In this document: positions 10,896 to 18,894 of the stretch, piece by piece
Layout of the letters: each line of letters begins with the position of its first letter
Numbering within the stretch: position 1 is the stretch's first letter
IMG/VR virus record: IMGVR_UViG_3300009180_000147
Location: 1 to 30,176 of that record
From: a virus
Length of the DNA stretch: 30,176 nucleotides
Reading direction: 5' to 3' (one strand)
Made by a program: the position numbers and the translations under genes
Notes under the pieces: model-generated
The model's database searches: none
What the model was told of the DNA's origin: nothing
Seen by the model: the letters and a program-made list of their open reading frames with translations, nothing else

Positions 10896-13256
10896 TCAGC
10901 TGAACGCATAGGGGTTGGTCCCGATCTCCCCCACCGCCAGCTTCCCGACTATCGGAGGCTTTGGCACCTCAACCCCTGACGTGGACTGGATTTCTCGCTG
11001 CAACTTGCCCAGCCAGTTGGGCTGATACATCGCCGCCAGTTCCTCGTGCAGCAGCTTGTGCAACTGGCCGGCCCTGCAGGGGATAGCGGCAAAGCAGTCG
11101 TGATTTGTCAGCACCTGAAACCTCTGCTCACCAGCTCTGCAGATGATCCGCTGGCAGTAGCTCGCGTCAAAACTGTGGATCAGGTTGGCCGTGATTCCCC
11201 TGCTGGTCACCCGTGCCGACAGCTCCCCCGGCGTGGCCCTGGTCGCTGCCCATCGCCGGTTCCCGCTGACCGCCGTTCGCACCGCTGCCCGTTGCTGTTG
11301 CTCGGCCCCCAGCTGCACCGGGAACCCGGTCGGCGTCGTCCACTGCACCGGCTGCTGGGTCTGCACCACCAGGCGGCCAACCTCCCGCAGCCAGGCCTGC
11401 ACTTTTAGGCAGCTGGCCAGCTCCAGCTTCAGCACGGCGTTGATGTGACGGGCCAGGTACTGCGAGGGCTGCACCAGCTCCCGCTCGTACCGGGCCGGGG
11501 AGACATCCTTGGCCGCCTCCAGCTGCAGCGCCAAACCATCGGCCACGCTCCAGAAGCCAGCCCCGTAGATGGTGGTCATGGTGGGCCCCTTCAGTGTCGA
11601 GCGGGTGACCCCCTGCTCCAGCCATTGGGCCGCCTGCCGCTGGTGATGGGGCGGCCCAGCCTCCAGGTCCAGCCGGAGGCGATCCACCACCTTCTCCGCC
11701 ATCAACCCGTACAGATCGGCTGGGGTGTCCCCCGTCAGCCGGGTCATGGCGCCCAGTTTCCCGTCCCTGGTCAGGGCGGCCAGGATCGCCATGCCGGAGG
11801 CATGCTGATCGAGGCGAATCGGGCAACCGATCGGCACCCGTGGATCCACCAGCCACTGGCGCACCGCACGGCATAGCTGCAGGAACTGCCAGGGATCCTT
11901 GGCATCCCTCCACAGATCAACCCGATCCAGGGGATGATCGGCCGCAGCGGTGAGCAGATCGAGGTTCTGTTTCCCCCAGGCCAGGCGATCGGCCCAGGTT
12001 CCTCGCTCCCCCCAGTGGCCGGCGGCGGCCTTCAGCATCCACTCAAACCCCTCCTCCCCTGCCGGTTCCCCCTGCAGTTCGATGGCTGCCTTCTCCCAGT
12101 CGGGCCCCTGGTGGGTGGCCTCACGGTTGGCCGTGTACACCCTGCCCCGCCAGTCCAGTTCGTAGGCGAACCAGCAGGGCTGCCCCTGCAATTCCTTCAG
12201 GGCCGCGATGCTGCGCTGCACCCGCAGCCGCAGCGGTGCGTTCTGCTGCCGGTCGATGCGGGCTTCCATGGCCGCCGCATACCACTCCCGCATCCCTTCC
12301 TTGCCGACCTTCTCAGTGGGCCGCGGCGGGGCCTCCAGCGGCTCACGCTTCACGGGGAACACGTTGACGCCGGAATCCCAGGCCTCCTCCTGGATGGCCA
12401 CCATCGAGGGGTTCACCACCATCTGCTGGGCCTGCAGCTGGTTCACCACGGCCAGCTGCATCGGGATCGCGTCGGCCTCCAGGTGCGGGGCACGCACCAC
12501 CAGCGGCTTGGTGTTGCCCAGGTGCCCACCACCATGCAGATCGGTCCATGGCCGTGGCTGCTCCAGCATCGGCAACCGCTTGGTCGGCAGCTGGCGCAGT
12601 GGCGTGGCCTTGATGATCGCCAGGGCCTCGACGGAGGGCCGCACATCCACCACGGGGCGGCCCTTTCGCTGCCGGCCGACCAGCTGCACCAGCCCGGTGC
12701 TGCCGGCCACCAGATCGAGCAGCAGGGCCCCCACCTCGAACCGATCCTGGGCTGACCATTTCCCAGGCTCGATCCCCATGGTCTGCAGCAACCGGGGATC
12801 GGTGATCTCGGCAGTCGTGTACCTGCGCTTCATCAGTCGCAGGGTTCCCGATCGCTTCTCCTTGAGGGTGGCCCCCCGCACCTCGCGCTCCAGGGCGGTG
12901 CCGATGGCCTGGGCCAGCCGTCGATGCGAGCGGGTCTGGCTGATGCCGTCAATCACCAGGGGCAGGGCCACGCTGACGATGGCCGCCGGCCCGCCACGAC
13001 CCGCCAGGTGCAGCAGCAGGGGCAAAGCGCAGTAGTGCGGGCCCGCCATCGACGGCTTGGCAAGCCACTTGGCCAGCAGCAGTTCCAGGGCATCACGCAC
13101 CGGCTCACCGTGCTGCCGAACCATTGCACCCCCGTATGGGGTTCGGGATTCGCGGGCCCCAGATCGCAGCCGCTGGTGCTGGGCCCGACTCGACTCTTTG
13201 GCCCTGGTTTCCTGTGCTCTCTCCCGCATCAGCTGGGCGGCGGACGCGTCCCCCAT
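10896..13256 (-). CDS. T7-type single-subunit DNA-directed RNA polymerase
   Basis: A protein of 786 residues (T7: 883) that should transcribe the phage genes from its own promoters. Palm motifs are intact: DWRGRVYT (368-375), motif A with D483 in RLDQHASGMAILAAL (T7 D537), motif B RSTLKGPTMTTIYGAGF with K556 and Y564 (T7 K631, Y639), and motif C HD at 719-720 in NHDCFAAIP (T7 D812). The C-terminus ends YAFS, similar to the FAFA end of T7. Most of the shortening is in the N-terminal promoter-binding and finger regions, which may mean altered promoter recognition. The start is ATG 13256 with GAGGT upstream; this start lies inside the first TGCAGACC repeat, so repeat-binding factors could affect its expression. 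Confidence 0.96.
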   Translation of the reverse strand: MGDASAAQLMRERAQETRAKESSRAQHQRLRSGARESRTPYGGAMVRQHGEPVRDALELLLAKWLAKPSMAGPHYCALPLLLHLAGRGGPAAIVSVALPLVIDGISQTRSHRRLAQAIGTALEREVRGATLKEKRSGTLRLMKRRYTTAEITDPRLLQTMGIEPGKWSAQDRFEVGALLLDLVAGSTGLVQLVGRQRKGRPVVDVRPSVEALAIIKATPLRQLPTKRLPMLEQPRPWTDLHGGGHLGNTKPLVVRAPHLEADAIPMQLAVVNQLQAQQMVVNPSMVAIQEEAWDSGVNVFPVKREPLEAPPRPTEKVGKEGMREWYAAAMEARIDRQQNAPLRLRVQRSIAALKELQGQPCWFAYELDWRGRVYTANREATHQGPDWEKAAIELQGEPAGEEGFEWMLKAAAGHWGERGTWADRLAWGKQNLDLLTAAADHPLDRVDLWRDAKDPWQFLQLCRAVRQWLVDPRVPIGCPIRLDQHASGMAILAALTRDGKLGAMTRLTGDTPADLYGLMAEKVVDRLRLDLEAGPPHHQRQAAQWLEQGVTRSTLKGPTMTTIYGAGFWSVADGLALQLEAAKDVSPARYERELVQPSQYLARHINAVLKLELASCLKVQAWLREVGRLVVQTQQPVQWTTPTGFPVQLGAEQQQRAAVRTAVSGNRRWAATRATPGELSARVTSRGITANLIHSFDASYCQRIICRAGEQRFQVLTNHDCFAAIPCRAGQLHKLLHEELAAMYQPNWLGKLQREIQSTSGVEVPKPPIVGKLAVGEIGTNPYAFS

Positions 13257-13530: not shown

Positions 13531-14574
13531 TTATGGGTCTTCAAGCGCCACCACGCAGCTGGCCAAGGCGTCGGTGCCCAGGTGCATGTATCTCTGCACC
13601 GCTGCGAGGCTCCGCCATCCCCCCCAGGCCATCAGCACCCCCTGGCTCACCCCCTTGCTGGCCAGCCTTGAGGCGCAGGTGTGCCTGCAGGTGTGGACCG
13701 TGAAAGCGGGATCGTCGGCCAGTCCCATGGCGCTCTTGGCCCTGCCGAACAGCTGTTGAAACTGGGTGTAGCTGTAGGGCCAAACGCGATGGGACCGCAC
13801 CGCCGGGAGGTGGGGGCGCACCGCATCTTGGGCCCGCCTGGTCAGGGGCACCGATCGGGGCCGGTTCGTTTTGGTTTGCGAGAACGTCACCCGGCTGTTG
13901 GTCAGGTCCACGTCTCCCCCGGCCAGCCCCTCGGCCTCCCCCCAGCGGCAGCCGGTTTCGAGGAGCCACACCAGCAGATCAGCGGCCACCGGCTGGCCCC
14001 ACTGCAGGAACAGCCCGATCATCTGGTCCCGTTCGTGGTCCTCGATCACGCGGTCTTTGAGGTTCCGCAACCGCATCTGCTTGGGCAGCTGGGGCGCCTC
14101 GGCCAGAAAGCCGTGGAGGATCGCATCGGACTGCATGGCCCGCAGCGCAGAGCACTTCTTGTTGATGGTGGCCGGCTGGTTCCCCTTGCGAATCAACTCC
14201 TGCCGCCAGGCTTCCACCAGCGGCGCGTTCACTGCGGACAACTGGGTGGCGGGACCGAACCAATCCACGACTGCCTGGCTGAAAATCTTCGCGGTGCGCT
14301 CGTAGGCGGTGCCTGCCCACCGAATGCGAAGCGAAAGTGTGCGGGCTTCGTTGAGGGTGAAGCCGGGGGAGCTTTTGGGCGCCGCCTTGATGGCAGCCTT
14401 GGCCCTGGCTGGCACGGTGGCGCGTGCCTCCATCTTCTGGCGCAGCCCATCCAGCGCGGCGGCTGCCTCAGCCTTGGTCTTGCGCAGTGCGGTGAGGCGC
14501 CGGCCGCCCTGGGCAATGTCTGCGACCCACCCCTTAGGGGTCTGCCGGATCCTGCCGGTCGTGGTGGTGGTCAT
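13531..14574 (-). CDS. int: Tyrosine site-specific integrase
   Basis: A protein of 347 residues that should recombine the phage attP with a host tRNA-Leu gene. An arm-binding type N-terminus (GRIRQTPKGWVADIAQGGRR) is followed by a SAM-like core-binding region (about 75-165) and the catalytic domain. The active residues are visible: R210 in TGCRWGEAEGL, K235 in TKTNRPRSVPL, H294 and R297 in HTCRH, W320 in place of the second His (allowed in the family) and the nucleophile Y329 in VQRYMHL. It starts MTTTTT at ATG 14574, directly after a class I element. The attP lies downstream of its stop. All key residues are present, so it is probably active. Confidence 0.96.
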   Translation of the reverse strand: MTTTTTGRIRQTPKGWVADIAQGGRRLTALRKTKAEAAAALDGLRQKMEARATVPARAKAAIKAAPKSSPGFTLNEARTLSLRIRWAGTAYERTAKIFSQAVVDWFGPATQLSAVNAPLVEAWRQELIRKGNQPATINKKCSALRAMQSDAILHGFLAEAPQLPKQMRLRNLKDRVIEDHERDQMIGLFLQWGQPVAADLLVWLLETGCRWGEAEGLAGGDVDLTNSRVTFSQTKTNRPRSVPLTRRAQDAVRPHLPAVRSHRVWPYSYTQFQQLFGRAKSAMGLADDPAFTVHTCRHTCASRLASKGVSQGVLMAWGGWRSLAAVQRYMHLGTDALASCVVALEDP

Positions 14575-14587
14575 GGTGTCGGGTGAT
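14575..14587 (-). promoter_or_regulatory. Class I element ATCACCCGACACC before integrase
   Basis: A perfect copy of the class I consensus, ending at the base before the integrase ATG. There is no Shine-Dalgarno. If it is a phage promoter, the mRNA would be leaderless or nearly so. Confidence 0.55.
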
Positions 14588-14590
14588 GGT

Positions 14591-14917
14591 TTAGAGGTTC
14601 TGCAGCTGGCGCAGCAGGGTGCTGCCCTTGGGCGAGAGGGCGACGAGGTTCCGCCGCCCCTCGTCCGGGTCTGGGTAGGTGGTCAGGAGTCCGAGGCCTG
14701 GCCTGCCATTTCGGTGCTCGGCTCCGAGGGCGTTGACGGTCCTGCTGACTGAGCTGTTGTTGAGGCTGAGGGCGTCCTGCAACTGCCTGTAGGTGCAGCG
14801 TCCTCCGAGGCGTCCGACCTCAATAAACAGTCGGAGGTGATGGAGGGGGACGGCGGTGGGGTCGTCGTGCTGAGCGGCGAAAGCGTCAGCTGCAGCTGCC
14901 ACTTGATCCAGGTCCAT
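14591..14917 (-). CDS. MarR-like winged-helix regulator
   Basis: A protein of 108 residues with one winged-helix domain: LHHLRLFIEVGRLGGRC, the recognition part TYRQLQDALSLNNSSVSRTV (about 43-62), and a wing and final helix with YPDPDEGRRNLVALSPKGSTLL, which is typical of MarR-type proteins. It probably binds DNA as a dimer. It lies directly upstream of the integrase (17 bp, separated by a class I element), so control of lysogeny or integration is a fair guess. The ATG at 14917 lies within the longer frame 14683-15192, leaving a 235-bp overlap. Confidence 0.85.
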   Translation of the reverse strand: MDLDQVAAAADAFAAQHDDPTAVPLHHLRLFIEVGRLGGRCTYRQLQDALSLNNSSVSRTVNALGAEHRNGRPGLGLLTTYPDPDEGRRNLVALSPKGSTLLRQLQNL

Positions 14918-16204: not shown

Positions 16205-17173
16205 TCAGGCCTCCCCTGCGTCGGTGGCTGGGGCCTCCGGTGCGATCAGATCGGCCGCCTGCCTGGCCTCGCTCAGCACCTTGAACAGGGTCCGCGGTCC
16301 TTCCTTCAGAACCTCGATCCAGTTCGCCAGATAGGCGGCGTGGTTCTCGAACTGCGTGCCGATCTCCAGCCGCTGGCACAACAGCAGTGCGCCAAGCTCG
16401 GCCACCAGCTCCTCACGGGCGTAGGCCTTGCTGCCGAAGGTTCCCCCCATCGGCCGCGCCAGCCGGTCAGCGTGGCCGGTGCTGTGGATCTGCTCATGGG
16501 CCCACGTTGAAGCGAAGGCCTCGCGGGACTCGAACGCCTCGGGGTTGGGCATGCTGATTCGATCCAGGCCGGGCACGTAGCAGGGCTGCGCCCCGCCAAA
16601 CGTGGTCAGAACCTCCCAGGCCTCTAGGACCGCTTCCGCAGTCTCCAGCCGGGCAGCGGGCTCCTTGGGTTCCGTCTGGCCGATGGCCACGGCGATCCGC
16701 TGGGCCAGGGCCGCGGCGGTTTCTTCGGTGGCGCCCACCAGGTCGGCGGCATTGAACACCGGGACCACCTTGTAGGAGGTCCAGGCTTTGAGCACGGTTT
16801 CAGGGTTGCCGGTGTCCGGGTTTGTTCCCTCCTCCTCGCGCTTGTTGAGTTGCGGCCGCAGGATCCGGGCCGCGGTACAGCCCTTGCGGGGATACCAGCC
16901 TTCAGCCTTGGCCTGCGCTCCGCCCAGCCATAGGGGCAGGCTGTGGCCGCGCATCAGGCCTCCCAGCTCCAACAGGATGGGATTTCCCCCGCGGTATTCG
17001 GCACCGGTTATCAGGTTGCGATGGCGGCCGGCTTGCCCCTGCCATGGGCGTCGCCATTTTGCGGTCCCCTGCTCCAGCAGGGCCACCAGATCGGCGCACA
17101 GCTTCTCCTCTGGTGTGGGCCCGTCGTAGGCCTTCTTGCCCCTGGTGCGGGGCTTCGTGGTGGTCGTTGTCAT
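16205..17173 (-). CDS. ArdC-like antirestriction protein (ssDNA-binding plus zincin domain)
   Basis: A protein of 322 residues. The N-terminal domain (about 18-140) fits the ArdC N-domain: a helix (EEKLCADLVALLEQGTAKWR) with RPW, then NLITGAEYRGGNPILLELGG, a pattern for ssDNA binding. The C-terminal domain is a zincin metallopeptidase: HEQIH at 226-230, further ligand H234 or the glutamates in AREELVAELGA (252-262). ArdC proteins protect incoming DNA against host restriction; the chemistry of the peptidase half is not settled. Starts MTTTTT at ATG 17173, with a class I element 8 bp upstream. It leads the group with two tiny genes. As a protein that protects DNA on entry it should be expressed early. 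Confidence 0.9.
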   Translation of the reverse strand: MTTTTTKPRTRGKKAYDGPTPEEKLCADLVALLEQGTAKWRRPWQGQAGRHRNLITGAEYRGGNPILLELGGLMRGHSLPLWLGGAQAKAEGWYPRKGCTAARILRPQLNKREEEGTNPDTGNPETVLKAWTSYKVVPVFNAADLVGATEETAAALAQRIAVAIGQTEPKEPAARLETAEAVLEAWEVLTTFGGAQPCYVPGLDRISMPNPEAFESREAFASTWAHEQIHSTGHADRLARPMGGTFGSKAYAREELVAELGALLLCQRLEIGTQFENHAAYLANWIEVLKEGPRTLFKVLSEARQAADLIAPEAPATDAGEA

Positions 17174-17241: not shown

Positions 17242-17538
17242 TCAGGCGGGGATGATGCGGCGCCCCTCGCGGCGCCAGCGCCGGGGCTGCTGCTGCTGGG
17301 CCGCGGCAGCCGCGTCAACCTCGAACCGGCCATAGAGCCAGCCGCGGCCCTTGCATCCGAAGCACGCACCATCGGCAACGTGCTGGAAATGGGGCAGGTG
17401 GCCGGTGCCGTTACAGCCCCATGGGCATGGGTAGGCGCGGCGGCTACCGGGCCATGGGTTCGGGGCCAGCGGTCGCCACCATGCCGGACGGTCCTCGGCA
17501 TACAGGCGCCACACCGGGTCCGTGGTGGTGGTGGTCAT
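17242..17538 (-). CDS. Small CxxC zinc protein
   Basis: A protein of 98 residues that begins MTTTTTDPVWRLYAEDRP. A tryptophan/proline-rich stretch is followed by a treble-cysteine cluster: CPWGCNGTGHLPHFQHV...CFGCKGRGWLYGR (about 38-70). This matches the CxxCxGxG repeat of DnaJ-type zinc centres, with two CxxC pairs. It starts 3 bp after the sigma factor stop, so it is co-transcribed with it. A zinc chaperone-like or nucleic-acid-binding accessory role is possible; not recognised further. Confidence 0.75.
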   Translation of the reverse strand: MTTTTTDPVWRLYAEDRPAWWRPLAPNPWPGSRRAYPCPWGCNGTGHLPHFQHVADGACFGCKGRGWLYGRFEVDAAAAAQQQQPRRWRREGRRIIPA

Positions 17539-17541
17539 CTG

Positions 17542-18132
17542 TCAGGCCCCCAGCGCGTAGCGGATGGCATCGACGGCGCGATCCCGGCGCCGGCTTGCCG
17601 TCATGGGCGACGTGCCGAGGATGGCCGCGGCCTCCCGGATGCTCCGCCCTTCCATCACCAGCAGGCGCAGCGCGGCAGCATCGGCGGCCGGCAAGCGCTC
17701 CGCCATCTGCGCCACCTCAGCGGCCAGGGCATCGCGGGGAGCCTCCTCCTCCGGCTCTGGTGCCTCCAGCAGATCAAGAAAGGCAGAGCCGCCCTCGATC
17801 ATCGGGGCGTCAAGGGAGGCATGGCCGAGGGGATACTCGCCGGCCTCATGGGCACGGCGAGACACGCGCACCAGTCGGAGCCGGTCGCGCACATAACGGC
17901 GCAGCGCTCCGGCGATGGAGCAGCGGAAATAATGCCGGGGATCGGTGCCAGGGGTGACACGGGCGGCAGCCTGCACCAGGGCCATGCGTGCCTCCTGCTG
18001 TAGGTCTTCGAGTTCGGCCAGGCCTCGCAGCCTGCGGGCCATGGCACGGGCCAGGGCGTCAGCCTCAGGCATGTAGAGACGGGCCAGGCGGTCGCGGGTC
18101 GCCAATGCGGCGGCCTGGGTGGTGGTGGTCAT
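17542..18132 (-). CDS. RNA polymerase sigma-70 family factor
   Basis: A protein of 196 residues that should direct host RNA polymerase to specific promoters. Region 2 is visible: ARRLRGLAELEDLQQEARMA, ALVQAAARVTP, then HYFRCSIAGALRRYVRDRLR (about 32-86) and VRVSRR, as in group 3 sigma factors. Region 4 is a helix-turn-helix: LPAADAAALRLLVMEGRSIR, EAAAILGTSPMTASRRRDRA (147-186). The linker (103-140) is acidic and replaces a full region 3. It begins MTTTT, with a class I element upstream. A sigma factor in a phage with its own single-subunit polymerase is unexpected. It may switch host transcription or serve lysogeny. Confidence 0.87.
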   Translation of the reverse strand: MTTTTQAAALATRDRLARLYMPEADALARAMARRLRGLAELEDLQQEARMALVQAAARVTPGTDPRHYFRCSIAGALRRYVRDRLRLVRVSRRAHEAGEYPLGHASLDAPMIEGGSAFLDLLEAPEPEEEAPRDALAAEVAQMAERLPAADAAALRLLVMEGRSIREAAAILGTSPMTASRRRDRAVDAIRYALGA

Positions 18133-18143
18133 CGGATTAAGGG

Positions 18144-18156
18144 GGTGTCGGGTGAG
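18144..18156 (-). promoter_or_regulatory. Class I element CTCACCCGACACC before sigma factor
   Basis: A perfect copy, ending 11 bp before ATG 18132. It directly follows the CCTAGG inverted repeat (18162-18191). Confidence 0.55.
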
Positions 18157-18561: not shown

Positions 18562-18894
18562 TCAGGCCAGGGCAGCCAGCAGATCAGCCCGGCGGCCGCT
18601 GCGGGCCAGGGCACGGAAGCCAGCCGCACGGGCCTGCAGGCGCAGTTCCCGGACGGTCAAGCAGTCCAGGGGGCGGCCAGCCCAGTCGCGGGCCACGGCT
18701 GCCGGTGCTGGCTGTGCTGCCAGTGCCACCGGTGCGGCGGCTGCAGTGCCTGACCAGGGCCGATGGATCGGCGGCTGCCAGCCAGCCACGGTCAGCACCA
18801 ATGCCACGCAGGGCACCAGCACGGCACGGGCCAGGCGGACGAGGGCAACGGTGCCAACCGCGGCGGCCTCGATGGGATGGGTCGAGCGATTCAT
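18562..18894 (-). CDS. Membrane-anchored SAP-like protein
   Basis: A protein of 110 residues. The N-terminal half has a hydrophobic segment (VALVRLARAVLVPCVALVLT, about 15-34) that should be a membrane helix. After an alanine/proline linker comes LDCLTVRELRLQARAAGFRA followed by RSGRRADLLAAL, which fits the SAP / Rho-N type helix-extended-loop-helix DNA-binding motif. The chosen start is ATG 18894 (MNRSTHP) with a class I variant 5 bp upstream. A GTG at 18945, itself 13 bp after another class I copy, is possible. A protein holding DNA at the membrane could act in early takeover or DNA entry; this is inference. Confidence 0.68.
   Translation of the reverse strand: MNRSTHPIEAAAVGTVALVRLARAVLVPCVALVLTVAGWQPPIHRPWSGTAAAAPVALAAQPAPAAVARDWAGRPLDCLTVRELRLQARAAGFRALARSGRRADLLAALA

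Follow-up and report, generated by a model that had tools for sequence, protein, structure and literature searches.

Textbooks present T7-type phages as needing nothing beyond the host sigma factor and a polymerase of their own, and sigma factors bind the multisubunit host polymerase, not T7-type enzymes. We know of no T7-type RNA polymerase (RNAP) in phages phiEco32 and 7-11, and both encode sigma factors. These proteins (phiEco32 gp36 and 7-11 gp47) are sigma-70-like and work through the host core RNAP (PMC8948821), as would the protein described here, but a tblastn search of 50,697 phage records with the latter yielded nothing at E ≤ 0.01. Salinivibrio phage CW02 (Zobellviridae) likewise has a small sigma with regions 2 and 4 (gp21) in a podovirus, but its genome has no PF00940 RNAP. 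Sigma-70 factors are also encoded by cyanophages, namely cyanosiphoviruses (S-CBS, S-LBS1; PMC6157547, PMC10452541), which differ in virus type and whose sigmas have no tblastn similarity to the present one at E ≤ 0.01. Phage-encoded sigma factors as such are already known; uncommon is a sigma-70 factor beside a T7-type RNAP.

The record under study was a 30,176-base IMG/VR virus fragment, analyzed at its full length and called the window below. Its closest named relative was the freshwater Synechococcus phage S-SRP02 (RNAP 46% identical), which points to a cyanobacterial host, followed by three Mediterranean fosmid phages (MedDCM) placed in Autographiviridae (RNAP 35–37% identical). These phages share with the window the T7-type RNAP, MarR, integrase, RusA, and an NrdR-like gene, but differ in having neither sigma-70 region 2 nor region 4. 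For comparison we used G001 and G002, each a 42.6-kb record whose ends match, together with several other records, of which G009 and G013 are fragments. Features of the window are collected in Table 1. In addition, a 111-nt direct repeat (positions 1–111 and 223–333, 93% identical) lies within a putative structural gene on the minus strand.

Table 1. Features of the window, with positions, strand, and supporting evidence or remarks
Feature	Position	Strand	Evidence or remark
T7-type single-subunit RNA polymerase	10896..13256	-	PF00940 3.9e-52; phrog_414 1.7e-130, nearly whole length
Tyrosine integrase	13531..14574	-	PF00589 2.8e-20
MarR-like regulator	14591..14917	-	phrog_9665 1.8e-17
ArdC-type antirestriction protein	16205..17173	-	PF18818 5.6e-38, PF08401 8.3e-17
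Small cysteine-rich (DnaJ/anti-TRAP-like zinc) protein	17242..17538	-	between sigma and ardC
Sigma-70-family protein, 196 aa, regions 2 and 4, without region 3	17542..18132	-	Pfam/NCBIfam/PHROG; homologues 88% and 87% identical
Sigma region 4, residues 139–187	17572..17718	-	PF08281; AF2 pLDDT 85–92
Sigma region 2, residues 20–84	17881..18075	-	PF04542 alignment; AF2 pLDDT about 75–92
Region 2.2 core-binding helix (predicted), residues 41–56	17965..18012	-	alignments; helix in both AF2 models
CACCCGACAC start-associated ('class I') element	18145..18154	-	12 nt before sigma ATG
CCTAGG inverted repeat, 12-bp stem, 6-nt loop	18162..18191	-	hairpin, -23.7 kcal/mol, z=-3.8
Small protein, two genes upstream of sigma	18562..18891	-

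The sigma protein and the phage polymerase

The first-pass annotation had placed sigma-70 regions 2 and 4 at 17542–18132, and an open reading frame (ORF) was found exactly there, with both regions above their Pfam gathering scores: Sigma70_r2 (PF04542, E=3.4e-7) with 30.4 bits against 24, and Sigma70_r4_2 (PF08281, E=1e-6) with 28.7 bits against 25.7. Generic helix-turn-helix models, a better match to which would have spoken against a sigma factor, scored lower and stayed under their own cut-offs (HTH_28, 19.6 against 25). The whole protein reached 65.8 bits with NCBIfam TIGR02937 (cut-off 42.9) and matched phrog_351, 'RNA polymerase sigma factor' (1.3e-14). Region 2 was fitted best by SigB/SigF/FliA models (TIGR02980, 3.3e-13; a SigF model, 7.4e-9), but unlike these bacterial group 3 sigmas, the protein has no region 3 and scores far under the cut-offs of those subfamilies (full-length TIGR02980, the SigB/SigF/SigG model, 49.9 bits against 234). 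The ECF-type profile PF07638 was also matched (22.9 against 21.1), with a two-domain layout; region 2 fits SigB/F/FliA better. Where region 3 would be, there is a short linker with an SLDAP motif, which in the alignment likewise precedes region 4 in distant mobile-element-like sigmas.

Positions D403, L404, Q406, E407, L412, and A415 of Escherichia coli RpoD correspond to D43, L44, Q46, E47, L52, and A55 of the sigma and are invariant in the alignment (RpoD numbering checked); D403, Q406, and E407 we take to be residues that contact core RNAP. With seven sequences as input, AlphaFold2 gave a model (mean pLDDT 74.7) in which residues 41–56 form the region 2.2 helix, so that the predicted core-binding helix, on which the annotation had made its reading depend, is present and bears D43, Q46, and E47. 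An earlier model from three sequences was weak for region 4, which improved with seven. At E<0.001 the structure search matched 16 PDB entries, every one a sigma factor, with SigB of Bacillus subtilis and Staphylococcus aureus the best; overall TM-scores were low because a poorly predicted linker joins the two domains, and the matches rest on the domains. Region 4 is intact and is the best-conserved part across the three homologues. Among these, dN/dS was 0.16–0.19, about that of the phage RNAP, and the gene is therefore maintained, evidently under purifying selection. Judged by profiles, alignment, and predicted structure, the ORF encodes a bona fide sigma-70-family protein; it would be a functional sigma, and its binding to core RNAP is predicted.

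That the phage has its own T7-type RNAP, as also annotated, was borne out by the profile matches and by conservation of the T7 catalytic residues D537, K631, Y639, and D812; such an enzyme fits an Autographiviridae-type phage. In G002, the RNAP (L013:12921–15329, minus strand) has F at the position of T7 Y639, with K631 and both catalytic D residues kept; Y639 of T7 RNAP tells ribo- from deoxynucleotides. A family A DNA polymerase of their own is typical of T7 relatives. With PF00476, no such enzyme was detected in either the window fragment or eight relatives (G001, G002, G010, G011, S-SRP02, and MedDCM S31-C1, S37-C6, and S38-C3), while T7 and S-CBP42 were positive, and a search of the same eight for DNA polymerases of families B and C likewise found none. 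S-SRP02 is classified in Autographiviridae despite having no PF00476 match; its 741-base gene called 'DNA polymerase I' is probably a 5'-3' exonuclease alone, and another gene in its record is annotated as Pol III beta-subunit-like. A lineage of T7-type RNAP phages relying on the host replisome would be unusual.

Distribution of the sigma gene

The viral scans turned up homologues of the sigma in G001 (88%) and G002 (87%) alone. Second and third viral scans, which were alignment-based, returned these two real homologues and distant sigmas on contigs without a T7-type RNAP. There was no tblastn match in 72,556 plasmid records, and a genome collection search gave just distant sigma factors of Firmicutes and Bacteroidota. 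Whole-record searches for Sigma70_r2 were negative in the relatives G004, G009, G010, G011, and G013, as well as in 21 named Autographiviridae records (S-SRP02, the three fosmid phages, and 17 others). The 17 were named records with a T7-type RNAP picked across the ranking, including T7, cyanophages, pelagiphages, and several Autographiviridae subfamilies; one had a partial region-4-like helix-turn-helix only. T7-type RNAPs occur in about 2,550 records, of which these 17 are a sample, so they show rarity, not uniqueness.

No sigma-70 in any T7-type phage was found in the literature search; for Q19, a Studiervirinae phage, a sigma54-like protein has been claimed from a weak HHpred match (E=0.67; PMC7693777). 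The combination, which the first reading knew from no described T7-like phage, was thus absent from both the 21 named records and the literature searched. A sigma together with a T7-type polymerase is unusual, and either half is of a known kind. In a different phage group (L024:9809–10357 and the related contigs L023, L072, and L073), a region-2-only sigma-like protein is encoded directly after a terminase-like gene, and region 4 was not detected in it.

Mobility of the gene and its upstream elements

Between G002 and the window, the sigma is 87% identical, as against 40% for RNAP, 47% for the major capsid protein (MCP), and 46% for TerL. Their DNA alignment (85–89% identity) is almost confined to sigma and ardC and runs from the first codons of sigma to just past ardC. 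Conversely, G004, with an RNAP 90% identical to that of the window, has the slot filled by other genes and no sigma, and in G009 the sigma site is empty and the upstream gene adjoins ardC. By this contrast, the sigma is a mobile accessory gene that has been transferred across distantly related members of this lineage. The ardC gene is 90% identical in G002, where the sigma is also found, and occurs without sigma in G011 (73%) and G009. The small zinc-protein gene is absent from G002; a relative of it occurs in sigma-less G004, and an anti-sigma role was rejected on these two observations. A counterpart of the small protein at 18562..18891 lies directly upstream of sigma in G002 and beside ardC in G009. 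Integrase and MarR genes are present also in relatives without sigma.

The sigma gene had been credited with a class I element of its own and, upstream, with a CCTAGG operator-like repeat. Both sequences are there; neither proved to be tied to the sigma. On the minus strand of the window, CACCCGACAC occurs at 14576, 15774, 17183, 18145, 18547, and 18960, often directly after a hairpin. There are 6–8 copies each in the window, G001, and G004, mostly shortly upstream of start codons, 4–5 in G009, G011, and G013, and one each in G010 and G002. The single G002 copy precedes neither sigma nor ardC, whose leaders there bear ACCTACC repeats in place of CACCCGACAC; the hairpin upstream of ardC is nearly unchanged. 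The element is thus present in five sigma-less relatives and unused at the G002 sigma, and therefore follows the phage lineage. As the promoter of the sigma, it is very unlikely and was rejected on its presence and absence across relatives. The stem of the CCTAGG hairpin is kept with altered bases in G001 and G004, in the latter before another gene. Since G004 has no sigma, a gene-specific operator is unsupported; what characterizes the slot is a hairpin followed by a start-associated element. The Rfam search gave no RNA family, and no convincing intergenic block was conserved between the window and G002. Cluster K mycobacteriophages carry start-associated sequences (SAS/ESAS; PMC3203893) that are likewise short, asymmetric, and placed just ahead of start codons, often immediately preceded by an inverted repeat, but the sequence and hosts differ from those of CACCCGACAC, and the likeness is one of arrangement only.

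Likely role of the sigma factor

The sigma of the window probably directs the host's own RNAP, as its conserved region 2.2 suggests. Judging from gene order, it lies in the early block and would be produced early, attach to the host multisubunit core through region 2.2, and redirect that core. The gene has been exchanged between phages that differ in their own polymerase and in their start-associated elements, and its target promoters therefore most likely lie in the genome that they share as a host, that of a cyanobacterium. A sigma that some phages have and their relatives lack would hardly serve as a fixed cascade step unless its promoters move too. Redirection of the host RNAP, perhaps at host promoters, is thus more likely than a fixed step in the phage cascade. 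Some Bacillus phage sigmas act on host genes and are not needed for lytic growth (PMC9429907), and cyanophage sigmas, when expressed, have been reported to alter Synechococcus metabolism (PMC10452541). That the sigma is an accessory host-reprogramming factor standing beside the T7-type polymerase cascade, not fixed within it, we regard as close to an even call, a little on the doubtful side. One phage promoter travelling with the sigma, for example near ardC with its conserved leader hairpin, could also be served.

The main rival to host targets is control of phage promoters, in which the sigma would send host core RNAP to middle or late phage promoters and so bridge early transcription by the host sigma and transcription by the T7-type RNAP. 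The protein is a true sigma by its profiles, the sigma and RNAP genes share a strand with the former upstream, and phiEco32 gp36 and 7-11 gp47 are precedents for middle and late genes (PMC8948821). However, G004, despite its RNAP 90% identical to that of the window, and other relatives are without the sigma, which the core cascade therefore does not require, and the distribution of class I elements does not follow that of the sigma. A search for bipartite motifs upstream of genes that would set the three sigma-bearing genomes apart gave nothing above controls (1 against 0–4 in control triples); no shared candidate promoter emerged from this test, which, with two independent lineages and few upstream regions, was of low power. 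The bridging of early and middle expression proposed in the first-pass annotation is weakened by these results and is kept as an unlikely, though serious, alternative.

The presence of integrase and MarR genes a few kb downstream, and the joint movement of sigma with ardC and its leader hairpin, would suit a sigma that drives its own cassette (e.g. ardC) or the genes of the integrase/MarR region in the prophage state. Against this, ardC occurs without sigma in G011 and G009, sigma-less relatives have the integrase and MarR genes, and no lysogen is known, which makes such control rather improbable. We give similarly little credence to a decoy that occupies the host core, displaces the primary sigma, and, while itself hardly active at promoters, damps host transcription to the advantage of the phage RNAP. 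Its conserved core-binding residues and short length without region 3 would fit, but the intact region 4, most conserved among the three homologues, argues for DNA recognition. A degenerate or repurposed helix-turn-helix protein unable to bind core RNAP could explain the modest per-region scores (about 30 bits) and the few homologues; purifying selection, invariant core-binding residues, and sigma matches across both regions make it very improbable.

Host reprogramming can be framed more fully, and with some more reserve, as two takeover systems in temperate-looking T7-type cyanophages: an exchangeable one, the mobile sigma, which would reprogram host RNAP at host promoters, and a core one, the phage polymerase, which would transcribe the phage. 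If the sigma comes into and drops out of such genomes on its own, possession of an RNAP does not keep a phage from gaining by steering the host polymerase, and near-identical phages with and without the gene offer a natural comparison for what phage sigmas do.
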